A stretch of 64,000 nucleotides of DNA from Oscillospiraceae bacterium (GTDB lineage: Bacteria; Bacillota; Clostridia; Oscillospirales; Acutalibacteraceae): contig SVOB01000001.1 of the NCBI GenBank assembly GCA_015066565.1, forward strand, positions 1,116,001 through 1,180,000. The letters are read 5' to 3'. The stretch's first letter is position 1, and each line of letters begins with the position of its first letter. Of this stretch, positions 26,107 through 38,100 are shown piece after piece. The position numbers and the translations under genes were made by a program. The notes beneath the pieces are model-generated. The model did not search any database. It was not told the origin of the DNA and saw nothing but the letters and a program-made list of their open reading frames with translations.

Positions 26107-26115
26107 AAGAGCCTG

Positions 26116-26144
26116 AGCGGACGTCGGATTGACGTCCGCTTTTT
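26116..26144 (+). terminator. Two-component operon terminator
   Basis: A perfect 10-bp stem (AGCGGACGTC with GACGTCCGCT, 26116-26140) with a 5-base loop is followed by TTTT. Confidence 0.88.
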
Positions 26145-26171: not shown

Positions 26172-26200
26172 TTGACTTGTATAAATAAATATGGTATAAT
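26172..26200 (+). promoter_or_regulatory. Promoter of the LicD/opine surface-glycan operon
   Basis: TTGACT (26172-26177), a 17-bp spacer and TATAAT (26195-26200) lie 72 bp upstream of the first gene. It is one of the closest matches to consensus in the window. Confidence 0.85.
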
Positions 26201-26272
26201 TGCTGTGTATGTTATATACTATAATTTACAAAATTTTGTAAAAAATAATTTCAGTGGAAACAGGAGAAGATT

Positions 26273-27331
26273 ATGTATTATCTCGACAATAACATCAAGA
26301 CTCTCGACCGTATCTTTGACCAACACAAAAGAGAGGGATATTTAAGGCTTGACCTTAACGAAAACCCCGGCGGACTTGATACAGATTTCATCAAAGAGGT
26401 TTTAAAGGACGTTGACCGGGAATTCGTGTCCCAGTATCCCGAAACCCTCGAATTCACCGAGGTTCTCGCCGACTATCTCGGCACGGATATTACCCATCTC
26501 TGCCTCGTCAACGGCTCGTCGGAGGGTATAAGATATATCATCCAGGCTTTCTCGGCTCCCGGCGGAAAAATCGTCGGCGTTGTTCCGACTTACGCCATGT
26601 TTGAGGTCTATTCAAAAATGTTCGGCAGGAACTTTATTCCCGTTGAATACACCGAAGACCTTAAAATGCCTATTGAAAACATTATTGCGAAGCTCAGCCC
26701 CGACGTTCAGCTCTTAATTCTTCTTGCTCCGAACAACCCGGTAGGCAACGCTTACACCGACGAAGAGGTTGAAACGCTTCTGAAGGTTGCGAAGGAAATG
26801 GAAATCACCGTCCTTATCGACGAGGCTTACCATTATTTCTGCCCGAAGACCTATATCAAGCGCGCTCTTAACGACGAGCATATCTTCGTTACGAGAACCT
26901 TCTCAAAGCTGTTCTCGCTTGCAGGCGCAAGACTCGGTTACGTTGCAGGCTGGCCCGAGGGCATAGCTATGGTCCAGAAGCTTTGCACTCCCCATAACGT
27001 AAACGCTTTCGCTATGGCTTTCGCAAAGAAGATTATCCAGACCGACGGTATGATAGACCACCTTGTCGCTCTTCATAAGGAGGGCCGTGACTATCTTATA
27101 AAGGCTCTTGACGAGAACGGCTATCCCCATCACGGCGACGAGGGCAACTTCATCTTCATCAAGCCGAGAACAGACGCCGTCGCTCTCGTTGACAGGATGA
27201 AGAGCGAAAAAGGAATTCTCATAAAGCACTATTCCGGAATCGGTATGCTCGGCACCTGCCTTCGCGTTACAACCGGCGAAAAGCAGTATATGGAGCGCTT
27301 TATGAACGCTCTTCTCGAATTAGATAAATAA
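26273..27331 (+). CDS. PLP-dependent class I/II aminotransferase (HisC/CobD-like)
   Basis: A 352-residue fold-type I PLP enzyme. The lysine that binds PLP is in TRTFSKLFSLAGARLGY, the Asp in VLIDEAYHYF contacts the pyridine ring, and NGSSEGI binds the phosphate. The relatives include histidinol-phosphate aminotransferase and CobD-type decarboxylases of phospho-amino acids. No his or cobalamin genes are nearby. As first gene of an operon with LicD, cytidylyltransferase and opine-dehydrogenase genes, it probably makes an amino or amino-alcohol precursor for a glycan substituent. Transamination versus decarboxylation cannot be decided here. One base separates it from the next gene. Confidence 0.85.
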   Translation: MYYLDNNIKTLDRIFDQHKREGYLRLDLNENPGGLDTDFIKEVLKDVDREFVSQYPETLEFTEVLADYLGTDITHLCLVNGSSEGIRYIIQAFSAPGGKIVGVVPTYAMFEVYSKMFGRNFIPVEYTEDLKMPIENIIAKLSPDVQLLILLAPNNPVGNAYTDEEVETLLKVAKEMEITVLIDEAYHYFCPKTYIKRALNDEHIFVTRTFSKLFSLAGARLGYVAGWPEGIAMVQKLCTPHNVNAFAMAFAKKIIQTDGMIDHLVALHKEGRDYLIKALDENGYPHHGDEGNFIFIKPRTDAVALVDRMKSEKGILIKHYSGIGMLGTCLRVTTGEKQYMERFMNALLELDK

Positions 27332-27332
27332 T

Positions 27333-28169
27333 ATGGAAAATAACTCTCTTTCGGCTGTTAAGAATATTGAAAAGGACATTCTTAAAAAGCTGTTAAGCGT
27401 ATGCGAGGAAAACAACTTAAGAATTTTCGCCGACGGCGGAACGCTTTTGGGCGCGGTACGCGAAAAGCATTTCATTTCGTATGACGACGATATTGATATG
27501 GCTATGCTCCGCGAGGACTACGACCGACTTATGAAAATCGGTCCGTCGCTTTTTGAATATCCTTATTTCTTTCAGTGCGCTTACACCGACAAGGGTTATT
27601 TCCGTCCCCACATACAAATCCGACGCTCCGACACCTGCGGCGCGTTGGATTTTGAACTTGATTATGTAGAATTTAATCAGGGTATTTTCGTTGACGTGTT
27701 CCCGCTTGACGGCGTGCCTGAGGACAACCTCGGGGGTAAAATTCAGTGGTTTGAAATTAAATTCTTAAAAAGATTTATGAACCTGCTTTACAGCCCCGTT
27801 CCGTCCGGCTCCGCCGCAAAGGGACTTGTTAAAAAATTCCTTAAACCTTTAGGGAAAATAATAAAAAGAGAAAGCTGTTACGAAAAATTTGAAAAAATCT
27901 GTAAAAGATATTCGGCTTCGTCCGATACCGTAACGCTTCTCTCCTTTAACGCCGATTACCGTATGCGGCTTCTTGAGAAAAAATGGTATGACAAAACGGT
28001 TTATCTTCCGTTTGACGAGCTTTCGGTTCCCTGTCCCGAAAAATACGAGGACGTTCTCGTAAAAAAGTTCGGGGACTGGAAAACGCCGTCAAAGGGAACG
28101 TTGCACGGTGACGTTATTTTTGACACCGAAAAAAGCTACGAAGAAATTAAAAAGAAAAACGGGGTGTAA
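27333..28169 (+). CDS. LicD-family phosphotransferase (first copy)
   Basis: A 278-residue LicD protein of the nucleotidyltransferase fold. The catalytic block is FADGGTLLGAVREK followed by SYDDDIDMAM, with metal-binding Asp51-Asp53 and Asp55. LicD enzymes move a phospho-alcohol such as phosphocholine from a CDP carrier to a glycan. The CDP donor could be made by the TagD-like enzyme three genes downstream. It is cytoplasmic with a basic C-terminal half. It lies one base after the aminotransferase and two bases before the second LicD gene. Confidence 0.88.
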   Translation: MENNSLSAVKNIEKDILKKLLSVCEENNLRIFADGGTLLGAVREKHFISYDDDIDMAMLREDYDRLMKIGPSLFEYPYFFQCAYTDKGYFRPHIQIRRSDTCGALDFELDYVEFNQGIFVDVFPLDGVPEDNLGGKIQWFEIKFLKRFMNLLYSPVPSGSAAKGLVKKFLKPLGKIIKRESCYEKFEKICKRYSASSDTVTLLSFNADYRMRLLEKKWYDKTVYLPFDELSVPCPEKYEDVLVKKFGDWKTPSKGTLHGDVIFDTEKSYEEIKKKNGV

Positions 28170-28171
28170 AT

Positions 28172-29242
28172 ATGCTCAGTCGTTTGCGAAAAAAAATCAG
28201 AACGGTTTTCATTAACCGTGTTTTAAGAAAAATTCTGCCGACCTATATTGCCCAGAGACGTCTTGAATCTTACGTCAAGAAGGACGTCGGCGCTATTGTA
28301 AACAAACAAGAATATCTTTTCTGGCTTTCGGAAAATCGGGAGGGCGAATCCCTTTCGGACACAAAAAAGCGTGTGTTTGCGAAAATTCCGCCCGCCGAGG
28401 GTATTCTCAGGGATATTCAGCTTCTCGCTTTGAGAATTCTCTGCGAGCTTGACGCCATCTGTAAGGAAAACTCGATTGATTATTGGGTAATGGGCGGAAC
28501 GATTATCGGCTCTGTAAGACACAAGGGCTTTATTCCGTGGGACGACGACGTCGATATCGGAATGATGAGAAAAGACTATGACAAATTAAAGGAAGTTCTT
28601 AAGAACAGCGACAAGCTTGACGTGCTTGAATTCTATAACTTCAACGGTCTTTACAGAATTCCCAAGGTTGTTCTCAAAAACTCCGAAACGAAGCTCGCTA
28701 TCGACATTATTCTTTTCGATTTCACCGATTTTTCGGACTACGATATTCCCGAGGATGCAACCCTCGAGGAGAAATATGATATTGTCTGGGATGTTCAGAA
28801 GGTTTACCGTCAAAGGTATGTACGCAAGCTCAAGTCGCTTAAATTCCAGCACAGAGACGTTATAAAGACAGACCTTATAAGAAACGAAAAGAGATTCGCA
28901 AAGACAAGCGCAATCACTCAAAAATATATTGACAAATGCAAATACAGATATGACGACGGCAACGTCGTTATCTGGGGTATCGACAACTTCACAAGCAAGG
29001 CTCCCGACAAGAGACGTCTTTACACGAAGGAATCCGTTTTCCCGCTTACCGAGCTTGAATTTGAAGGCAAGTTCTTCCCTGCTCCGAACGACTATATGGA
29101 TATGATTACCCGTGAAGCGGGCGACATCTGGTCCTTCCCCGGAGACATAGGAAAGCCGAAGTTCTTCAGCGAGGCTCAGCTCGCCGAGGAATACGCAAAG
29201 AGCAAGGAAGCTATGAAAGCCGTTTTTGGCAAGGAGGATTGA
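28172..29242 (+). CDS. LicD-family phosphotransferase (second copy)
   Basis: A 356-residue LicD protein with a basic N-terminal extension of about 75 residues absent from the first copy. The active site reads VMGGTIIGSVRHKGFIPW followed by DDDVDIGM (Asp124-126). The two copies are clearly divergent, so they likely use different acceptors or act on successive residues rather than being a recent duplication. The gene is embedded in the operon with gaps of 2 and 3 bp on its two sides. Confidence 0.88.
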   Translation: MLSRLRKKIRTVFINRVLRKILPTYIAQRRLESYVKKDVGAIVNKQEYLFWLSENREGESLSDTKKRVFAKIPPAEGILRDIQLLALRILCELDAICKENSIDYWVMGGTIIGSVRHKGFIPWDDDVDIGMMRKDYDKLKEVLKNSDKLDVLEFYNFNGLYRIPKVVLKNSETKLAIDIILFDFTDFSDYDIPEDATLEEKYDIVWDVQKVYRQRYVRKLKSLKFQHRDVIKTDLIRNEKRFAKTSAITQKYIDKCKYRYDDGNVVIWGIDNFTSKAPDKRRLYTKESVFPLTELEFEGKFFPAPNDYMDMITREAGDIWSFPGDIGKPKFFSEAQLAEEYAKSKEAMKAVFGKED

Positions 29243-29245
29243 CGG

Positions 29246-30364
29246 ATGAACGTTACCATAGTCGGCGCAGGCAATATGGGTCTTGCGATGGTAGGCTATC
29301 TCGCTCTTAAGGGCGAAGACAGGGTTACCCTTTACACCCGCAAGCCTCTCCCGAAAGAGATGACTCTTAAGGATGTTGAGGGCGGCGTTCTTGAAAAGAC
29401 GGATAACTACGCAGTTACCTCTTCAAAGGAGGAAGCCTTCGGCAACGCGGATATTATTTTCTGCACCTACCCCGCATTTTTAAGAATTAAATTTATAAAT
29501 GAAATATCGGATTACCTCAAGGCAGGCCAGCGAATCGGCTTCGTCCCCGGTTACGGCGGCGCCGAATATGCCTGCAGAGACCTTATCAAAAAGGGCGTTA
29601 TAGTTTTCGGTCTTCAGCGCGTTCCGTATGTTGCCCGTCACGAAAACAACGAAAACGGCGTTACGGCGGGTATTCTTTCAAAAAAGAATACGCTTTATCT
29701 CGCTACAATCCCCTATAAATACACTGACGAGACGGCTGCTATGGTCGGAAAGCTTCTCGATATTCCCTGTCAGCCGCTGAAGGAATATCTTTCAATAACT
29801 CTCGCCCCGTCAAACCCGCTTCTTCATATTACGGGTATGTACACCGCCTTTAAGGATTATAAAGACGGCGACACCTATCCTGACGAAATTCCCTTCTATG
29901 AACAGTGGACGGACGAAACGAGCGAGATTCTTTTCAGATATGACGAAGAGGTTCAGGAAATCTGCAGAAAGCTGAGCCCGCTTGATTTAAGCGACGTTGT
30001 TTCGCTTCCGATTTACTACGAATCACCTACTCCCGAGGCTATGACGAAAAAGCTTCAGAGCATTGAATCGTTCAAAGCGGTAAGAGTTCCGCTTAAAAAG
30101 GAGGGCGACAGCTTCGTTCCCGACCTCAATTCAAGAATGTTTATTGAGGATTTTCCGTTCGGCGTTTGTATTCTCAAGGCGTTTGCGCTTATGCTCAAAG
30201 TTGATTCACCCGTGATTGATATGATGCTCGCCTTCTATAAAAGGCTTTCGGGCATTGAATACTTTAAGGAAAACGGCGAATTCGGCAAGGACATTTCTTC
30301 AAGCGGAATTCCCCAGAATTTCGGTCTTGAAACCCCGCAGGATATTTTAGATTTTTATATTTAA
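29246..30364 (+). CDS. Octopine/nopaline dehydrogenase-family (opine dehydrogenase-like) enzyme
   Basis: A 372-residue NAD(P)-dependent enzyme. The N-terminal Rossmann motif is VGAGNMGLAM (residues 6-15). The second domain has SNPLLHITGMY with the conserved catalytic His and RMFIEDFPFG, both typical of the opine dehydrogenase family. Opine dehydrogenases reductively condense an amino group with an alpha-keto acid. Carboxyethyl amino-acid substituents are known in some bacterial surface polysaccharides. In this operon it could build such a secondary-amine acid for transfer by LicD; that is inference. It starts 3 bp after the second licD gene. Confidence 0.83.
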   Translation: MNVTIVGAGNMGLAMVGYLALKGEDRVTLYTRKPLPKEMTLKDVEGGVLEKTDNYAVTSSKEEAFGNADIIFCTYPAFLRIKFINEISDYLKAGQRIGFVPGYGGAEYACRDLIKKGVIVFGLQRVPYVARHENNENGVTAGILSKKNTLYLATIPYKYTDETAAMVGKLLDIPCQPLKEYLSITLAPSNPLLHITGMYTAFKDYKDGDTYPDEIPFYEQWTDETSEILFRYDEEVQEICRKLSPLDLSDVVSLPIYYESPTPEAMTKKLQSIESFKAVRVPLKKEGDSFVPDLNSRMFIEDFPFGVCILKAFALMLKVDSPVIDMMLAFYKRLSGIEYFKENGEFGKDISSSGIPQNFGLETPQDILDFYI

Positions 30365-30379
30365 CGAGGCAAAAACAAA

Positions 30380-31726
30380 ATGAAAAAAGTTATTACCTAC
30401 GGAACATACGACAAGCTGCATTTCGGCCACATAAGACTTCTTGAAAGGGCGAAGGCGCTCGGCGACTATCTTATCGTAGGCGTTACCGCCGACGACTTCG
30501 ACAGAACAAGGGGTAAGATTAACGTTCAGCAGCCGCTTGAGGAGAGAATCGAAGCGGTTAGGGCAACGGGTCTTGCGGACGAAATCATAGTCGAGGAATA
30601 CGAGGGTCAGAAAATTGACGACATAAGAAGGCTCGGCGTTGATATTTTCACCGTCGGCTCGGACTGGGTAGGCCAATTTGACTACCTCAACGAATACTGC
30701 AAGGTGGTTTATCTTGAAAGAACCGCCGGCGTTTCGAGCAGCGAGCTTCGCGCCGAACAGGTTTCGTTAAACCTCGGCCTTGTCGGAAAAAAGCGTTCGC
30801 TCGTCAAGTTCATTAACGAAAGCGGGTTTGTAAACGGCGTTAATATCAAATACACCTGCACAATCGGCGAAAAAATCGGCAACAGCGAAATTGAGGAGTT
30901 TCCCTATGACCGCGATTCGTATCTTGATATGCTCTCAAAGGTTGACGCCGTATATATCGCTTCGGCGCCTGCGCTTCACTACGAGCAGGTTTTAACCGCC
31001 ATTGAACAGGGAAAGCACGTTTTCTGCGAAGCTCCCGTCGCTCTTAAGGCGAGCGAGTGCGAAAAGCTTTTTGAGCTCGCAAAGGAGCGCGGCGTAATCC
31101 TTATGGAATCGGTCAAGACCGCTTATATGAACGCCTATGTGCGCCTGCTTCTTCTTGTAAAGAGCGGACGTATCGGCGACGTTGTTTCAATCGACGCTAC
31201 CTGCACCTCTCTTAAGGATATTTCGGGCGTTCCCGAGGAAGAGCTCAGCCAGAACTGGAACAGTATCTGCGCCTGGGGTCCGACGGGTATGCTTCCCGTT
31301 TTCCAGATTCTCGGAACGGACTACAGCCACAAGAACATAATTTCAAAATGTATTGATAAAAACAAAACCTACGATATTTTCACTAAAATTGATTTTGAAT
31401 ACCCTTCTGCCGTTGCGACCGTAAAGGTAGGTAACGGAATAAAATCCGAGGGCGAGCTTATCATCTCGGGTACAAAGGGCTATATTTACGTTCCGTCCCC
31501 GTGGTGGAAAACCGATTATTTCGAGGTTCGCTATGAAAATTCCGCCAACAACAAGCGTTATTTCTATCAGCTTGACGGCGACGGAATCCGCTATGAAATA
31601 GTCGCTTTCGCGAAGGCCGTGTTTGAGGGCAAAACCGCAAACTACTATCTCGAAAACAATATTTCAAAAACCGTTTCTTCAGTCATCGAAGATTTTTACG
31701 CAAAAAAAGACACAACCAATATCTGA
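30380..31726 (+). CDS. TagD-like cytidylyltransferase fused to a degenerate Gfo/Idh/MocA domain
   Basis: A 448-residue two-domain protein. Residues 1-130 closely resemble glycerol-3-phosphate cytidylyltransferase: GTYDKLHFGHIRLLERAK contains the HxGH motif, and GSDWVGQFDYL and ERTAGVSSSELR follow. It should form a CDP-linked alcohol. Residues about 137-448 resemble a Gfo/Idh/MocA oxidoreductase (VYIASAPALHYEQVLTAIEQGKHVFCE), but the usual EKP motif reads EAP, losing the catalytic lysine, and the glycine-rich NAD loop reads GLVGKKR. The second domain may be non-catalytic or altered. The gene fits LicD genes that need a CDP donor. Confidence 0.85.
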   Translation: MKKVITYGTYDKLHFGHIRLLERAKALGDYLIVGVTADDFDRTRGKINVQQPLEERIEAVRATGLADEIIVEEYEGQKIDDIRRLGVDIFTVGSDWVGQFDYLNEYCKVVYLERTAGVSSSELRAEQVSLNLGLVGKKRSLVKFINESGFVNGVNIKYTCTIGEKIGNSEIEEFPYDRDSYLDMLSKVDAVYIASAPALHYEQVLTAIEQGKHVFCEAPVALKASECEKLFELAKERGVILMESVKTAYMNAYVRLLLLVKSGRIGDVVSIDATCTSLKDISGVPEEELSQNWNSICAWGPTGMLPVFQILGTDYSHKNIISKCIDKNKTYDIFTKIDFEYPSAVATVKVGNGIKSEGELIISGTKGYIYVPSPWWKTDYFEVRYENSANNKRYFYQLDGDGIRYEIVAFAKAVFEGKTANYYLENNISKTVSSVIEDFYAKKDTTNI

Positions 31727-31746
31727 TAACCTATCGGGAGACATTG

Positions 31747-32514
31747 ATGATTAAAAAATTAAAAGAAAACAAGTTTCTTTTTGAAGAGCTTGTCAAAAGA
31801 GATTTCAAGAAAAAGTATACGAGAACAGTGCTCGGCGTTGTCTGGAGCTTGCTGTCCCCGCTTCTTCAGTTGCTTGTAATGAGCCTTGTATTCAAGGAGT
31901 TTTTCGGAAGAAACACGCCGCATTACACAATCTACCTTTTCTGCGGCACCCTTGTTTTCAACTATTTTAAAGAGGCGACAAAGGGCGGTATGACGGCTCT
32001 TGTTTCCAACGCCAGTATTTTCACAAAGGTAAACGTTCCGAAATATCTTTTCCTTTTTTCAAAGAACATTCAGGCGTTAATCAATTTCCTGCTTACGCTT
32101 ATTATTTTCGCTATCTTCCTTGCGTTTGACAAAATCGTTCCAACGTGGAGGTTTGTTCTTCTTATTTACCCGATAGCGTGCCTTATCGTGTTCAATATAG
32201 GCGTCGGAATGGTGCTTTCGGCTATGAACGTATTTTTCAGGGATATAGCCTATCTTTACGATATTTTCTGTATGCTTCTGTCTTACCTTTCCGCAATTTT
32301 CTACAACATTGACAGGTTTGACGAAAAGGTTCAGATATTCTTTATGTTAAACCCTATGTACTGCTACATAAGTTATTTCAGGGAAATAGTTATAAACGCG
32401 TCTGTTCCCGGCCCCTATCACCATGCGGCGTGCGCCGTTTACGCAATAGTTATTCTTCTTATCGGCGCCTGGACCTACAGACATTATAATCAGAAGTTCC
32501 TTTATTATCTGTAA
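31747..32514 (+). CDS. ABC-2 type polysaccharide export permease (TagG-like)
   Basis: A 255-residue integral membrane protein with about six helices. It begins with the cytoplasmic amphipathic segment FLFEELVKRDFKKKYTRTVLG that is typical of TagG/Wzm permeases of wall teichoic acid or O-antigen export. An in-frame TTG at 31744 exists; the ATG at 31747 is preferred behind CGGGAG. It pairs with the ATPase 13 bp downstream. Together they imply that the operon's glycan is finished in the cytoplasm and exported by an ABC route, not by a flippase. Confidence 0.9.
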   Translation: MIKKLKENKFLFEELVKRDFKKKYTRTVLGVVWSLLSPLLQLLVMSLVFKEFFGRNTPHYTIYLFCGTLVFNYFKEATKGGMTALVSNASIFTKVNVPKYLFLFSKNIQALINFLLTLIIFAIFLAFDKIVPTWRFVLLIYPIACLIVFNIGVGMVLSAMNVFFRDIAYLYDIFCMLLSYLSAIFYNIDRFDEKVQIFFMLNPMYCYISYFREIVINASVPGPYHHAACAVYAIVILLIGAWTYRHYNQKFLYYL

Positions 32515-32527
32515 ACGGAGGATAGAT

Positions 32528-33484
32528 ATGAGTATTATTCAGGCAAAAGGCGTATCCATCCGATATATTACGGGTGATTTTAAGGATATAGGCCTTAAGG
32601 AATATGTAATAAAAAAAATAACGCGCAAATATAAGGTCAAGGAATTCTGGGCGGACAAGGACATTACCTTTTCGCTTGAACAGGGCGATATGCTCGGCAT
32701 TATCGGCTCTAACGGCGCAGGGAAATCCACCCTTCTTAAAGCCGTTTCGGGCATTATGATTCCCACAAAGGGTCATATGGAGTGCCATGGCTCTATTGCG
32801 GCGCTTCTTGAGCTGACAAGCGGCTTTGACAAGGACCTTACGGTTAAGGAAAACACCTATCTTCGCGGCGCTATGCTCGGCTATACCCGTGAATTTATGG
32901 ACGAAAAATATAAAGAAATTATTGAGTTCGCCGAGCTTGAGGAATTTGAGGACAGAGCCTATAAACAGCTTTCAAGCGGTATGAAAAGCCGACTTGCGTT
33001 CTCAATCGCCTGTCTTGTAAAGCCCGATATTATTATTCTTGACGAGGTTTTATCGGTAGGCGACGGCGCATTCCGTAAAAAGAGCGGCAACAAGATGAAG
33101 GAAATTCTTGACACGGGCGTTACGGGAATTATAGTTTCCCACTCGATTTCTCAGATAAGGGAAATGTGCAATAAGGTTCTCTGGCTTGACCACGGCAACC
33201 AGATTGCTTTTACCGACGAGGTTATGCTCTACTGCGACGCATACGAAGAATTCCTTTTGACCAAAAAGCTTCCCAAGACTAAGGAAGATATTTTCAAGCT
33301 TGCCCAAGGGCATGACGAACGTCTTGAAAAGGAAAGACTTGAAAAGCAGTTGAAGGAACAGAAACGGCTTGAAAAGGTTCTTGAATCGGGTACTTCCGAG
33401 GCTGCTATTGACGCGGCTATAAACGTTTTGCGTAAAAACAGACCCGAGCTTTTAAACGCCGACCTTATTTCAGGCGACAAATAA
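32528..33484 (+). CDS. Polysaccharide export ABC ATPase (TagH/Wzt-like)
   Basis: A 318-residue ATP-binding subunit. Walker A is GSNGAGKST (60-68), the signature is LSSGMKSRL, Walker B is DIIILDEVLSVGD, and the H-loop is VSHSISQI. After residue 250 there is a highly charged, probably coiled-coil tail (HDERLEKERLEKQLKEQKR), in place of the larger C-terminal domain of full TagH or Wzt. It couples ATP hydrolysis to glycan export with the permease upstream. The ATG follows GGAGG. Confidence 0.92.
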   Translation: MSIIQAKGVSIRYITGDFKDIGLKEYVIKKITRKYKVKEFWADKDITFSLEQGDMLGIIGSNGAGKSTLLKAVSGIMIPTKGHMECHGSIAALLELTSGFDKDLTVKENTYLRGAMLGYTREFMDEKYKEIIEFAELEEFEDRAYKQLSSGMKSRLAFSIACLVKPDIIILDEVLSVGDGAFRKKSGNKMKEILDTGVTGIIVSHSISQIREMCNKVLWLDHGNQIAFTDEVMLYCDAYEEFLLTKKLPKTKEDIFKLAQGHDERLEKERLEKQLKEQKRLEKVLESGTSEAAIDAAINVLRKNRPELLNADLISGDK

Positions 33485-33508
33485 TTTTCAGAAGACGGAG
33501 GAACCCCG

Positions 33509-34513
33509 ATGAAGCCCGTTTTAAGTGTTGCGGTTGCCTGCTATAATGTTGAAAACTATCTGAACAAGGGGCTTTCCTCTTATTCGGACGAAAGATTTAA
33601 AAACAGGCTCGAGGTTATTGTCGTAAACGACGGCTCAAAGGACAGCACCCTCGAAATCGCAAGGGAATATGAAAATAAATATCCCGAAATCTTTAAGATA
33701 ATAGATAAAGAAAACGGCGGTCACGGCTCTGCGGTCAACGCCGCCCTTGACGCAGCCGAGGGAAAGTATTTCAGAATTATCGACGGCGACGACTGGGTTA
33801 ATACCGACGGGCTTGAAAAGGCTCTTTCGTTTATGGAAACCGCCGACTGCGATATGATAATTGACTGTAAGCGTGAGGTCGATATGAAAACGGGCGACTC
33901 GGTTTTCTTTCCGTTGCCCGTGGATATAACGCCCGACAGGGAATATAATTTTTCCGAAATCTGTAATAACGAAAGCGTTTTCCCGAACATTATGATTCAC
34001 ACCGCTACGGTTAAGACCTCGCTTCTTAAGGAAAACCGGGTCCGTGTGCTCGAGGGCGTTTTTTACGAGGATATTGAGTATATTATAAAGGCTTCTGTCA
34101 GGGCGAAAACGGTTGTTTTCAAAGACATTGAGGTTTACCAATATCTTGTAGGCAACGACAACCAGAGCGTAAGCCTTAAAAACTATGTTAAAAGATATTC
34201 TCAACATTCCCTCGTCACGAACGAACTTATAAGGTTTGCGGGCGAGTTCGGGGAAAAAGGGGCTGTCCGCGATTATCTCTATAAGCGTGTAGCTCTTCTT
34301 ATCAACACGAATATCAACATTTCGCTTCTCTATAACGAAAACCGAAAAGAGGGAAAAGCCCTCGCAAAGCAGTTCCGTCAAAGCCTAAAAAACAAAAATC
34401 CCGAGCTGTTTAACGCCACGAAAAACAGGTATTTTTCGGCTTCGGTTCTGAATTTTTTAGGCATTGACTATAACAAGCTTACCAAGATAAAAAACAAACT
34501 GCGCAGGAGTTAA
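33509..34513 (+). CDS. Family 2 glycosyltransferase (first copy)
   Basis: A 334-residue GT-A enzyme. The start VLSVAVACYNVENYL, the NDGSKDST block and the metal-binding IDGDDW are typical of GT2. It should add a sugar from a nucleotide donor to the growing surface glycan in the cytoplasm. The C-terminal 100 residues are basic and may contact the membrane. The ATG follows GGAGG. It is followed 5 bp later by a second GT2 gene. Confidence 0.88.
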   Translation: MKPVLSVAVACYNVENYLNKGLSSYSDERFKNRLEVIVVNDGSKDSTLEIAREYENKYPEIFKIIDKENGGHGSAVNAALDAAEGKYFRIIDGDDWVNTDGLEKALSFMETADCDMIIDCKREVDMKTGDSVFFPLPVDITPDREYNFSEICNNESVFPNIMIHTATVKTSLLKENRVRVLEGVFYEDIEYIIKASVRAKTVVFKDIEVYQYLVGNDNQSVSLKNYVKRYSQHSLVTNELIRFAGEFGEKGAVRDYLYKRVALLINTNINISLLYNENRKEGKALAKQFRQSLKNKNPELFNATKNRYFSASVLNFLGIDYNKLTKIKNKLRRS

Positions 34514-34518
34514 TTCTG

Positions 34519-35595
34519 ATGAGTAACAAGCCTTTGTTTTCGATTATACTGCCCTCGTACAAGGTTGAAAGCTACCTTGAGGACGCTGTTTCATCAATAC
34601 TCTCCCAGAGCTTTAAGGATTTTGAAATTATTATCGTCGATGACGCCTCGCCCGACAGCGCAGGCGTTATAGCCGACTCTTTAAGCGAAAAATATTCATT
34701 TATAAAGGTAATTCACCACGAAAAAAACCTCGGGTTGAGCGAAGCTCGCAACAGCGGACTGCTTTTGGCCTCGGGGGATTTTGTTTTTTTCATGGACCCC
34801 GACGACGTTATTTCCCCGTCGCTTCTCGAAGAAGTAAAAAAAGCCCTTGATAAACAGATGTCTCAAGTCGTTGTTTTCGGCTTAACTGAGGATTACTATA
34901 ACAGCGAAAATCAGCTTTGTAACAGCGTTGAAATCGTTCATTCCGACTCCCCTCTTTTCTTAAGCACAAAGGAAGAAATCAGAAAAGAGATGCTTTATCT
35001 CGAAAAGGACACCCTGCTCGGCTATGCGTGGAACAAGGTTTATTCAAGAGAATACCTCGTTGAACATTCGCTGAGCTTTGAAACGGTTGAATTTATTGAA
35101 GATATTGTTTTCAACATAAATGTTTTTAAAAATCTGTCCTCGCTCGTTGTTCTCAATAAGCCCCTATACCATTATATAAAGAGGGTTAACGCAGGGCTGA
35201 CAAGCAGGTATTCCCCGAATTTCTATTCCGTCCACAAAAGGCGGGTTGAAACTCTTTATAACAGCTATAAAGAATGGAATATGCTTGACAGGAACGTTTA
35301 TAACATTCTCGGAAGCGAGTACTCCCGTTATATTTTCTCGTCGGTTCAGAGAAATTGCGATAAAAAATCGGACCTTTCCGTCAAAGAGCAAAAGGCTTTC
35401 ATTCGCTCGGTATATAATGAAGATTTCTTCAACGAGCTTATTCCGAACGCCGACTCCGACAGTAAGGCCGTCAGGCTTATGCTGTTTTTACTGAAAAAAA
35501 GAAGCGTATTTTTTACAAGGGCTGTCTGTCGGCTTCTTGACATAATAAAAAATTCATTCCCAGTTTTATTCTCAAAAATCAAACAGGAGCGATGA
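34519..35595 (+). CDS. Family 2 glycosyltransferase (second copy)
   Basis: A 358-residue GT-A enzyme of the GT2 group. FSIILPSYKVESYLEDA, VDDASPDS, NLGLSEARNSGL and the metal-binding FMDPDD are all present. It is distinct from the preceding GT2 and probably makes a different linkage. With only two transferases, the repeat unit of the glycan may be simple, or further transferases may lie elsewhere. Its stop overlaps the start of the GH5 gene by 4 bp (ATGA), indicating translational coupling with a glycoside hydrolase. Confidence 0.88.
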   Translation: MSNKPLFSIILPSYKVESYLEDAVSSILSQSFKDFEIIIVDDASPDSAGVIADSLSEKYSFIKVIHHEKNLGLSEARNSGLLLASGDFVFFMDPDDVISPSLLEEVKKALDKQMSQVVVFGLTEDYYNSENQLCNSVEIVHSDSPLFLSTKEEIRKEMLYLEKDTLLGYAWNKVYSREYLVEHSLSFETVEFIEDIVFNINVFKNLSSLVVLNKPLYHYIKRVNAGLTSRYSPNFYSVHKRRVETLYNSYKEWNMLDRNVYNILGSEYSRYIFSSVQRNCDKKSDLSVKEQKAFIRSVYNEDFFNELIPNADSDSKAVRLMLFLLKKRSVFFTRAVCRLLDIIKNSFPVLFSKIKQER

Positions 35596-37067
35596 AAATG
35601 GATAAAATTATTACAAAGGAAATGCGGTTCGTTGACGAAAAGGGTCGAATCCGCCTTTTCAACGGCTTTAACATTGACGATAAAATCCTTTCCTCGCCCG
35701 AGTTTCGCTATAATCTTGACGAGGAGTTTTTCAAAAAATTCCGCGCCTACGGGCTTGACATAATCCGTCTTGCCGTTACCTGGCAGAATCTCGAGCCCGA
35801 AATGGGAAAATATAACGAAAAATATCTTCAGTCGCTTGACAGGATTTTTTCTCTTGCGGCAAAGTACAAGGTATATATTCTTCTTGATATGCACCAGGAT
35901 TTATATTCAAACTTTGACGGCAAAAGCGTAGGCGACGGCGCTCCGTCCTGGGCGGCAATTACCGACGGTTATAAGCCGAGAATGCCGAAATTCGTATGGG
36001 CAGAGGGCTATTTCTTCGGCAAAAGCGTTCACAGGGCGTTTGACCATTTCTGGGCGAACACTCCCGTTGAGGGAAAAGGAATTCAGGACCGTTTCGCTTC
36101 ACTTTGGCAAATGCTTGCCAACCGCTACGGCGACAGCGAAGCCCTTTTCGGCTTTGACCTTTTAAACGAGCCTTTCCCGGGTACAGACAGTAAAAAGATG
36201 TTCGCCGCTCTTATCGGCGGCGCCGTTAAAACGGTGCTTTTCGGAAAAGAGGTCAACCGCTGTTCAATGATAAAAGCGTTTGTCCGCCGTGACACGCCCG
36301 CCCTGCTCGATTCGCTCACGGGCGGCGCATTTAAGAAAATCGTTAAGGGCGTCAACAAATACGCCGAACAGTTCGACCTTAACAAGTATTCCCCGTTCCT
36401 TAACAAAACTGCAACGGCAATAAGGGAAAGAACGGATAACGGAATTATAATGATGGAACAGAACTACCTCTGTAACGTCGGCGTAAAGCAATCCGTGCCG
36501 CCGATAACCGTCAACGGAAAGCGTGAGGAAAAACAGTGCTTCGGACCTCATTCTTACGATATTGCGGTCGACACCCCGCTTTATAAATACGCCAACGCCG
36601 AGAGGGTAAAGACCTTCTTTAACGAGATGCACAACACCCAGAAGCGTCTGGGCGTTCCCGTAATCGTGGGCGAATGGGGCGGTTGCAGCGACAACAAGGA
36701 TACCTCCTGGTTCCCCCACGCCTTTGAGCTTCTCGACTTCTTTGACGAAAAGCAGTGGAGTCAGGTTTACTGGGATTATCACGGCGACGACCTCGACGCT
36801 CCCGTTATGAATATGCTTTGCAGAACCCATCCCGTTGCCGTAGCGGGCGAGCTTATCAGCTACGGCTTTGACAGAAAGAGCGAAACCTTCACCCTGAAAT
36901 ATGTTTCAGACGGCAAAAACGAAACTCTTATTTATGTTCATAAGCCCTTTAACGCCGACAAGGGCGTTAAATATAAAACGGTTGAAGCCTACGAAAGCGG
37001 AGCGAGCCTTATTTCAATAAGAGCGAAGCAGGGCGAGCAGACCGTTACAATTCAGCTTGAAAAATAA
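35592..37067 (+). CDS. GH5 endoglycoceramidase/cellulase-like glycoside hydrolase
   Basis: A 491-residue family 5 glycoside hydrolase. LLDMHQDLYS (97-106), the acid/base Glu193 in LLNEPF and nucleophile Glu361 in VGEWGG are in place. A C-terminal beta-sandwich of about 80 residues follows. The sequence resembles the endoglycoceramidase-like branch rather than secreted cellulases. There is no signal peptide, so it is cytoplasmic. Being coupled to a glycosyltransferase gene inside an export operon, it may trim or quality-control lipid-linked glycan rather than degrade food polymers; this is inference. Confidence 0.85.
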   Translation: MKMDKIITKEMRFVDEKGRIRLFNGFNIDDKILSSPEFRYNLDEEFFKKFRAYGLDIIRLAVTWQNLEPEMGKYNEKYLQSLDRIFSLAAKYKVYILLDMHQDLYSNFDGKSVGDGAPSWAAITDGYKPRMPKFVWAEGYFFGKSVHRAFDHFWANTPVEGKGIQDRFASLWQMLANRYGDSEALFGFDLLNEPFPGTDSKKMFAALIGGAVKTVLFGKEVNRCSMIKAFVRRDTPALLDSLTGGAFKKIVKGVNKYAEQFDLNKYSPFLNKTATAIRERTDNGIIMMEQNYLCNVGVKQSVPPITVNGKREEKQCFGPHSYDIAVDTPLYKYANAERVKTFFNEMHNTQKRLGVPVIVGEWGGCSDNKDTSWFPHAFELLDFFDEKQWSQVYWDYHGDDLDAPVMNMLCRTHPVAVAGELISYGFDRKSETFTLKYVSDGKNETLIYVHKPFNADKGVKYKTVEAYESGASLISIRAKQGEQTVTIQLEK

Positions 37068-37079
37068 AGGAGAAGAAAA

Positions 37080-38030
37080 ATGGCTAAAATAATCGGCGAA
37101 TCAATTAAAAACCTCCCCTGGGAAAACAAACCCGAGGGCTATCAATACCCCGTCTGGAGATACTCGGGCAACCCCATTATCACCCGTGACAACCTCTTTT
37201 TTGCCAACAGTATTTTTAATTCCGCAGTTGTTCCCTTCGGCGACGGCTTTGCGGGCGTTTTCAGGGTTGACGACAGAACGAGAGACCAGAATATCCTTAC
37301 GGGCTTCAGTAAGGACGCAATCCACTGGGAACTTCAGGAAGAGATTATTTTCAAGGGCTATGACCCGAGAATCTGTGAAATTGACGGCAAATACTATCTT
37401 ACCTGGGTCAACCTCACCCCTCACGGCACCACAATCGGCGTTGCCGTTACCGAGGACTTCAAAACCTGGGAACAGAAGGAGGACGCCACCTACCCCGTAG
37501 CGAGAAACGGCGTGCTTTTCCCGAGAAAAATCAACGGCGAATATATGCTTCTTGTCCGTCCCTGCGACAGAGGCCACACCCCCTACGGCGATATTTTCAT
37601 TCAGAGAAGCGCCGACCTTAACTACTGGGGCAACTACCGCTTTGTAATGGGTCCTGTCAAGAACTGGGAAATGACAAAAATCGGCGCAGGTCCGACCCCG
37701 ATTGAAACCGACGAGGGCTGGCTTCTTTTCTATCACGGAGTTATAACAAGCTGTAACGGCTTCACCTATTCAATGGGCGCGGCAATTCTCGATAAGGACG
37801 AGCCGTGGAAGGTACTCCACAGAGCAGACAGCTTCCTTTTAGCGCCTCACGAATTATACGAAACAGTCGGCGACGTTCCGAACGTAGTTTTCCCCTGCGC
37901 AGCGCTTTCTGACGCAGACACGGGAAGAATCGCAATCTACTACGGCGCGGCGGACACCTCGGTTGCTCTCGCTTTTACAACGGTTGACGAAACTCTCGAC
38001 TACATCCATAAGCACGATTTACTTAAATAA
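37080..38030 (+). CDS. GH130 family phosphorylase/hydrolase
   Basis: A 316-residue five-bladed propeller enzyme of GH130. The conserved Asp of GYDPRICEIDGKYYLTW is the expected proton donor, and FYHGVI and YYGAADT lie in the later blades. GH130 enzymes mainly phosphorolyse beta-mannosides, giving mannose 1-phosphate. Phosphate-binding Arg and His residues appear to be present but the subfamily cannot be fixed. As last gene of the operon it could recycle or supply mannose 1-phosphate for glycan synthesis. A strong terminator follows. Confidence 0.88.
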   Translation: MAKIIGESIKNLPWENKPEGYQYPVWRYSGNPIITRDNLFFANSIFNSAVVPFGDGFAGVFRVDDRTRDQNILTGFSKDAIHWELQEEIIFKGYDPRICEIDGKYYLTWVNLTPHGTTIGVAVTEDFKTWEQKEDATYPVARNGVLFPRKINGEYMLLVRPCDRGHTPYGDIFIQRSADLNYWGNYRFVMGPVKNWEMTKIGAGPTPIETDEGWLLFYHGVITSCNGFTYSMGAAILDKDEPWKVLHRADSFLLAPHELYETVGDVPNVVFPCAALSDADTGRIAIYYGAADTSVALAFTTVDETLDYIHKHDLLK

Positions 38031-38042
38031 AAATTAAGTTTT

Positions 38043-38073
38043 AAGAGCAGTCCGTTTTGGACTGCTCTTTTTT
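38043..38073 (+). terminator. Surface-glycan operon terminator
   Basis: A perfect 11-bp stem (AAGAGCAGTCC with GGACTGCTCTT, 38043-38069) is followed by TTTTTT, closing the 11-gene operon. Confidence 0.92.
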
Positions 38074-38100
38074 GCCGAACCTTACAATCCTCCAATTATA

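Follow-up and report, generated by a model that had tools for sequence, protein, structure and literature searches.

An Oscillospiraceae operon joining an opine-type dehydrogenase to LicD enzymes and CDP activation: a candidate pathway for an N-carboxyalkylated glycan head group

Gene content of the operon

The window is a stretch of 64,000 nucleotides from contig SVOB01000001.1 of an Oscillospiraceae bacterium (GCA_015066565.1, positions 1,116,001 to 1,180,000). Its plus strand carries eleven open reading frames (ORFs) at 26273-38030, which combine an opine-type dehydrogenase (ODH) with a pyridoxal phosphate (PLP) enzyme, two LicD phosphotransferases, a cytidylyltransferase and an ATP-binding cassette (ABC) exporter, and which probably make an unusual head group for a surface glycan. 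All ORFs, their strand, domains and tight spacing (-4 to +24 nt, from the coordinates) confirmed the eleven-gene operon proposed in a first-pass annotation. The next downstream gene follows 133 nt past the operon end. The features are:

26115..26141, plus strand: intrinsic terminator 3' of the upstream two-component-system genes (hairpin, -20.1 kcal/mol, z -3.8)
26172..26200, plus strand: predicted sigma-70-type promoter with extended -10 (TTGACT-17-TATAAT, 11/12 consensus positions, TG preceding the second hexamer)
26273..27331, plus strand: HisC-like PLP enzyme, predicted transaminase making a phospho-amine (PF00155, Aminotran_1_2; hisC model below cut-off)
27333..28169, plus strand: LicD1 phosphotransferase (PF04991, E 5e-35)
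28172..29242, plus strand: LicD2 phosphotransferase (PF04991, E 1.6e-33)
29246..30364, plus strand: ODH, predicted reductive N-carboxyalkylation of an amine (PF02317, Octopine_DH)
30380..31726, plus strand: TagD-Idh, a TagD-like cytidylyltransferase fused to a Gfo/Idh/MocA-fold domain that has lost the catalytic lysine (PF01467, CTP_transf_like, and PF01408, GFO_IDH_MocA)
31744..32514, plus strand: ABC-2 permease, glycan exporter (PF01061, ABC2_membrane; galactan-exporter permease model 78 bits, under cut-off)
32528..33484, plus strand: TagH/Wzt-like ABC ATPase (PF00005, ABC_tran; TagH and Wzt models matched under their cut-offs)
33509..34513, plus strand: GT2 glycosyltransferase a (PF00535, Glycos_transf_2, E 3.1e-29)
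34519..35595, plus strand: GT2 glycosyltransferase b (PF00535, E 1.7e-33)
35592..37067, plus strand: accessory endoglycoceramidase-like GH5 (PF00150, Cellulase, and PF18564; EndGlycCerase model 117 bits, cut-off 700)
37080..38030, plus strand: accessory GH130-like mannoside phosphorylase (beta-mannobiose phosphorylase models 180 and 144 bits)
38043..38074, plus strand: predicted intrinsic operon terminator (11-bp stem and T-run, -19.4 kcal/mol, z -5.5)

The operon had been described as enclosed by one promoter and one terminator. The terminator is a strong predicted hairpin with a T-run. The 26172 site is the first listed of 31 promoter-like sites in the 16 kb scanned (mean of shuffles 19.0). 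A second site inside the operon, at position 33108, scores equally, and a single promoter is therefore a prediction.

The operon was found in two further genomes with different flanks. One (L023) has all eleven genes with 67-93% identity to the window operon. The other (L024, 19.4 kb seen) has the first nine genes and one additional GT2 gene and lacks GH5 and GH130. The conserved core is therefore PLP-LicD-LicD-ODH-TagD-Idh-ABC-ABC-GT2-GT2. GH5 and GH130 are accessory, and their earlier listing as core parts is not supported. The best matches of the last gene are beta-mannobiose phosphorylase models, yet under their cut-offs; it is therefore labelled GH130-like only. By eye, no signal peptide was seen in the two hydrolase-type genes (35592-38030) that end this export operon. 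The earlier statement that a flippase is missing holds for the operon itself, but the ABC exporter can act as the export step. The lic1 operon of phosphocholine decoration holds LicD, a LicC-like CTP transferase and a choline kinase together. The window operon has two LicD genes, and a domain search, which covered the operon and not the remainder of the genome, found no LicA- or LicC-type gene in it. A third LicD gene of this genome (G000:C2:137941-138582, locus L022) belongs to a separate region that also looks devoted to surface glycans.

The octopine/nopaline dehydrogenase domain of the ODH scored 81.6 bits (cut-off 30). The AlphaFold model has a pLDDT of 95.4, and its best fold match in the PDB is octopine dehydrogenase (TM 0.85 by query length), followed by CENDH. 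Alignments and trees were made with the 70 homologues within the length limit. His194 and Asp302 are invariant in them and Arg297 is nearly invariant. These residues align with His212, Arg324 and Asp329 of octopine dehydrogenase, which we take to be its catalytic positions. By domain, fold and catalytic positions, the protein is probably an opine-type dehydrogenase, predicted to couple an amine with a 2-keto acid.

TagD-Idh comprises 448 amino acids (model pLDDT 86.9). TagD enzymes are recognised by the motifs HxGH and RTxGxSS, and Gfo/Idh/MocA oxidoreductases by the catalytic lysine of an EKP motif and a GxGxxG cofactor loop. HxGH and RTxxxSS are present in the TagD half of 13/13 members. This half is closest to glycerol-3-phosphate cytidylyltransferase and scored 105 bits with the equivalog model (cut-off 165.4). 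In the Idh half, 12/13 members have lost the EKP lysine, and the usual glycine motif is gone from most, so that this half lacks the marks of a catalytic Gfo/Idh/MocA oxidoreductase. The fold is retained in the structure model despite the lysine loss. The Idh half looks catalytically dead, and the first-pass annotation of an intact two-enzyme synthase is weakened by this comparison. The single member with the lysine, L076, may represent the ancestral state.

Genomic association of the dehydrogenase with amine supply and activation

A profile of eight aligned ODHs was scanned against genome contigs. The best 80 of at least 187 relatives, together with L015, gave 81 loci for a six-frame profile search. 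Six frames were used since spurious antisense ORFs hid genes, for example a phosphoenolpyruvate (PEP) mutase in L071. The contexts of the homologues, whose survey had been suggested earlier as a check, are not random. On the same strand and within 3 kb of ODH, a cytidylyltransferase was found in 65/81 loci, an amine-forming enzyme in 62/81, LicD in 40/81 and all three in 34/81. The frequencies fall steeply with distance. Where both flanks reach at least 9 kb (50 loci), a cytidylyltransferase was present at 0-3, 3-6 and 6-9 kb in 41, 8 and 1 cases, an amine source in 40, 2 and 1, and LicD in 23, 7 and 5. The association was also visible across 197 related genomes, nine of which have an ODH (E ≤ 1e-20). 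A fusion of LicC- and CobD-like domains (E ≤ 1e-60) or TagD-Idh (E ≤ 1e-40) occurs in 8/9 genomes with ODH and in 11/188 without it; the match in G095, among the 11, is confined to the Idh part. The ninth ODH genome, G014, is a draft in which the ODH adjoining LicD is broken, being split into three ORFs (L021).

ODH pairs with four amine supplies: a transaminase with TagD-Idh, the LicC-CobD-like fusion, choline/ethanolamine-kinase fusions and aminoethylphosphonate (AEP) pathways. The fusion is the most frequent. It is a protein of about 600 amino acids with a LicC-like and a CobD-like PLP domain in Pfam, and it occurs in one frame, on the same strand and within 3 kb of ODH in 40/81 loci. Its best PDB match is a threonine-phosphate decarboxylase-like enzyme. 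The N-terminal part matches LicC and a nucleotidyltransferase/class V aminotransferase structure, which we take to be PntC-AEPT. TagD-Idh is near ODH in 12/81 loci, six with the PLP family of the window and six with a class V transaminase; L028, with a short TagD-like frame, is not among them. A choline/ethanolamine-type kinase frame lies within 6 kb in 8/81 loci, three of which also have the fusion. Seven of these frames have 588-618 amino acids including a LicC-like part, and that of L077 has 318; a kinase frame 6.1 kb from ODH in L060 is excluded from the count.

PEP mutase is near ODH in 3/81 loci (L071, L087, L100) and in G507. The order in L087 is ODH, AEP transaminase, CTP_transf-PEP mutase and phosphonopyruvate decarboxylase, and the three AEP enzymes exceed curated cut-offs. 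In G507, LicD and ODH are followed by decarboxylase-like, AEP-transaminase-like, PEP mutase and LicC-like genes. The amine in the PEP-mutase loci is almost certainly AEP, with ODH as the extra enzyme. For the window genome itself the phosphonate (Ppm/PntC) pathway was rejected: no PEP mutase exceeded the cut-off, with a best match of 21.9 bits against 31.5.

On the ODH tree, the partner type, taken from called-ORF neighbourhoods, switches 22 times; the minimum possible is 4 and the shuffled mean 31.4. The 11 TagD-Idh partners all fall within one supported clade of 14. Because of the number of switches, ODH is read as having been re-paired with different amine modules.

The PLP enzyme of the window scored 229.8 bits with the hisC equivalog model (cut-off 276.55). 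It is not the HisC of this genome, as a separate HisC elsewhere scores 325.9, above the cut-off. A tree of 40 sequences placed the window family (9 rows) with 15 HisC, as its own clade in the HisC half. Twelve of the 40 fusions were included (L055, with an incomplete PLP frame, was omitted), and their PLP domains grouped with an annotated serine-O-phosphate decarboxylase and three CobD-like reference proteins that are themselves under the CobD cut-off. The split between the two sides is supported by 100/99. An assignment of the window enzyme as CobD or serine-phosphate decarboxylase is thus not supported. Its grouping with the HisC transaminases and not with the CobD-like decarboxylases favours a serinol-phosphate-like amine.

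A different line of evidence comes from an exchange of the reductase. Two genomes of the genus of the window, G032 (L016/L037) and G016 (L139), share one locus with collinear flanks of 69-84% nucleotide identity, in which the fusion has 91% and LicD 80% amino acid identity. Between fusion and LicD, one genome encodes ODH and the other a PF02423 protein of the ornithine-cyclodeaminase/mu-crystallin family. No remnant of the other reductase gene was detected in either locus. Among the highest-ranking NCBIfam models for the PF02423 protein are those of the ornithine-cyclodeaminase family, alanine dehydrogenase, SbnB and pyrroline-carboxylate reductase, and none of these reaches its cut-off. Both families perform imine chemistry, and since both are imine reductases, the slot between fusion and LicD is probably one of reductive N-alkylation. 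Further variants exist: G077 combines the mu-crystallin enzyme with fusion and LicD and lacks ODH. A GNAT acetyltransferase separates LicD from the PLP gene in G184, where TagD-Idh is present and ODH absent.

Several side observations concern the modules. In two Methanobrevibacter records (L029, L030), ODH, PLP enzyme and TagD-Idh of the window type are accompanied by a TagF-like protein and one with a LicD domain, which suggests that these genes passed between rumen-type bacteria and methanogens. L177-L181, L183, L184 and L186 encode PEP-mutase proteins of about 668-694 amino acids that match PEP-mutase and LicC-like NTP-transferase profiles in one frame. L101, L082, L085, L088 and L091 have LicC-like and choline/ethanolamine-kinase domains. 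An amidohydrolase or APC-type transporter gene is present in these loci as well, and they possibly salvage the amine from an amide. The LicC-CobD-like fusion adjoins a CDP-alcohol phosphatidyltransferase gene in L113 (Rahnella plasmid) and an AAC(3)-family acetyltransferase gene in L112 (Priestia plasmid).

Proposed pathway and alternatives

On balance, we lean towards an operon that makes an N-carboxyalkylated amino-alcohol phosphate head group and places it on a short exported glycan. The gene families, the operon structure, the conserved association and the exchange of ODH in the sister locus can be read directly from the sequences and are the ground for this pathway. It would start with the HisC-like PLP enzyme, which would aminate a small phospho-ketone; the most likely substrate is dihydroxyacetone phosphate, giving serinol phosphate. 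ODH would join a 2-keto acid, with pyruvate as the probable one, to the primary amine and reduce the imine to an N-(1-carboxyalkyl)amine. The TagD domain may then turn the phospho-alcohol into its CDP derivative, with the Idh fold as a structural or regulatory remnant. The two LicD enzymes could move the phospho-head group onto sugars laid by the two GT2, and the TagGH/Wzm-Wzt-like ABC pair would export the glycan. We infer every substrate, the order of the second and third steps and the surface-bound product; ODH might use the phospho-amine while it is free, once it is CDP-linked or when it is already part of the finished glycan. The first-pass annotation had suggested LicD transfer of a CDP-activated phospho-alcohol with a carboxyalkyl-amino group. 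This gains genomic support from the association, the coupling to AEP in four loci and the reductase exchange.

Other observations weigh against the pathway as drawn. A same-strand cytidylyltransferase within 4.5 kb is missing from 15/81 ODH loci, although three of these have an opposite-strand cytidylyltransferase directly beside ODH and several others are near contig ends. LicD is within 3 kb in just half of the loci. Conversely, a close ODH is missing for the fusion in 6/11 genomes and for TagD-Idh in 5/8, one of the five matching over the Idh part only. None of 30 fetched PEP-mutase loci has ODH or the mu-crystallin family in flanks of about 1.5 kb; G507 is the exception beyond the flanks, with ODH 2.3 kb away. 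As the core is also present without ODH, ODH is optional tailoring at most. Both ODH and a mu-crystallin enzyme lie within 3 kb in 8/81 loci, so a simple one-for-one replacement fails as an account. The HisC-like PLP clade has a long stem (2.12), which makes the substrate of the PLP enzyme uncertain.

The best surviving alternative keeps the architecture and changes the amine: the PLP enzyme would make or use ethanolamine phosphate or an amino-acid phosphate (phosphoserine, phosphothreonine), which ODH would N-alkylate. The closest ODH folds are octopine dehydrogenase and CENDH, and opine dehydrogenases canonically take amino acids as amine donors; an amino-acid phosphate is therefore possible, which also speaks against serinol phosphate. 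The fusion domains, grouping with an annotated serine-phosphate decarboxylase, would yield ethanolamine phosphate in their loci. A comparable structure, N-methylthreonine linked by a phosphodiester to GlcNAc, is described for the type A flagellin of C. difficile in the text available from PMC8861647. Against this, the PLP enzyme of the window is on the HisC side and not on the decarboxylase side, the amines expected in the AEP and kinase loci have no carboxylate, and the TagD domain is nearest to a glycerol-3-phosphate enzyme. A different amine is therefore unlikely for the window, with a real chance of being right.

Decoration with an alditol phosphate is improbable. TagD-Idh would be a two-step CDP-alditol synthase comparable to CDP-ribitol synthase, with LicD as the transferase of the alditol phosphate, while the task of the PLP enzyme and ODH would be a different one, for example an amino-sugar substituent. 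Pairs of reductase and cytidylyltransferase producing CDP-alditols are established, as excerpts of PMC10918830 state, and TagD belongs to a glycerol-phosphate enzyme family. The degenerate Idh domain argues against such a synthase, and so do the LicC-CobD-like fusions, which occupy the same position beside ODH and have no reductase domain by Pfam.

A free opine, serving as metallophore or redox sink with an incidental position in a glycan locus, is very improbable: a PF02317 ODH stands beside an annotated cysteine synthase, a PLP enzyme and siderophore genes on a Serratia plasmid, and an ODH-like gene lies 3' of a gene that is cysteine-synthase-like by eye in a Proteus mirabilis record, but these are distant homologues (24-25% identity) in other contexts, and the close ODH family is tied to CDP activation and LicD.

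The preferred serinol-phosphate pathway can be extended, tentatively and with less confidence than for the operon alone, to a plug-in step that crosses phyla and includes methanogenic archaea. Imine reduction of the opine or mu-crystallin type would turn phospho-amines (ethanolamine phosphate, serinol phosphate, AEP) into N-carboxyalkyl head groups, which LicD or TagF-like enzymes would transfer. The window version would make CDP-N-carboxyalkyl-serinol with a cytidylyltransferase that carries a dead dehydrogenase fold. If so, amino-acid-like, zwitterionic or acidic head groups would replace plain ones of the phosphoethanolamine type. Surface-glycan biosynthesis would make use of opine chemistry, for which metallophores, crown galls and invertebrate muscle are the main known settings. 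The chemically known class of N-carboxyethyl-ethanolamine phosphate would gain candidate genes, and new members are predicted on serinol phosphate and AEP; the organisms concerned are Methanobrevibacter, Bacteroidota, a spirochaete and Clostridia of the gut.

Relation to known systems and distribution

Among the matches listed in the open-access literature, none describes a pathway joining opine, octopine or nopaline dehydrogenase or carboxyethyl groups with LicD, capsule, O-antigen or a cytidylyltransferase. The lic1 phosphocholine pathway (LicA/LicC/LicD) shares the CDP-activated amine head group and LicD transfer with the window operon, which differs by TagD-type activation, a transaminase and ODH and by the lack of LicA and LicC. 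Opine dehydrogenases of the octopine, CENDH and staphylopine type resemble the window ODH in fold, with the His/Arg/Asp positions of octopine dehydrogenase; the window enzyme differs by its place in a glycan locus and by its amine, which would be a phospho-amine and not a free amino acid.

The predicted head group has a chemical counterpart. P. mirabilis O-polysaccharides are listed as containing N-[(R)-1-carboxyethyl]ethanolamine phosphate (PMC9630907), and this substituent is likewise a carboxyalkyl amine on a phospho-amino-alcohol. Genes for it were not found in the excerpted text of that article. Two P. mirabilis records, both filed as plasmids, have ODH-like genes that are distant from the window ODH. 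At the one locus examined, no LicD or cytidylyltransferase match was found beside the ODH-like gene and no glycan locus was recognisable. An N-carboxyethyl-aminoethylphosphonate is reported from Fibrobacter; no mention of it turned up among the papers listed.

The first step has a counterpart in the capsule of C. jejuni, where Cj1437 transaminates dihydroxyacetone phosphate to serinol phosphate, according to the portion of PMC12096443 at hand. The serinol/ethanolamine amidation of this capsule (Cj1435-Cj1438) likewise uses a transaminase on this ketone for a surface glycan. The amine is amide-linked to glucuronate there and then dephosphorylated, whereas CDP activation and LicD in the window operon predict a phosphodiester with an N-substituent.

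In phosphonate pathways, PEP mutase is fused to a nucleotidyltransferase of either the PF12804 or the PF01467 type (Rice et al. 2019, PMC6697681, in extract). The PntC/Ppm decoration with AEP treated in the same extract also has a cytosolic phospho(no)-amine, CTP activation and LicD-like transferases nearby. The window genome differs by the lack of a PEP mutase over the cut-off, a precursor that would be a phosphate ester and the added opine-type dehydrogenase.

The rows of the ODH tree belong to Bacillota, Methanobacteriota, Bacteroidota, Spirochaetota, Elusimicrobiota, Melainabacteria and Saccharimonadota. Named carriers include Merdimmobilis hominis An559 and Bullifex porci. A single-protein query found no relatives in viral contigs, and none were found in phages. 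The ODHs of the spirochaete Bullifex porci (L056) and an uncultured Clostridia bacterium (L061) are near-identical (tree branches 0.023 and 0.038), which suggests a very recent cross-phylum transfer or a binning error. On plasmids of Burkholderia and Paraburkholderia (L108, L114), a phytanoyl-CoA dioxygenase gene stands between two ODH-family genes, with a methyltransferase gene adjoining; this cassette is present in both.

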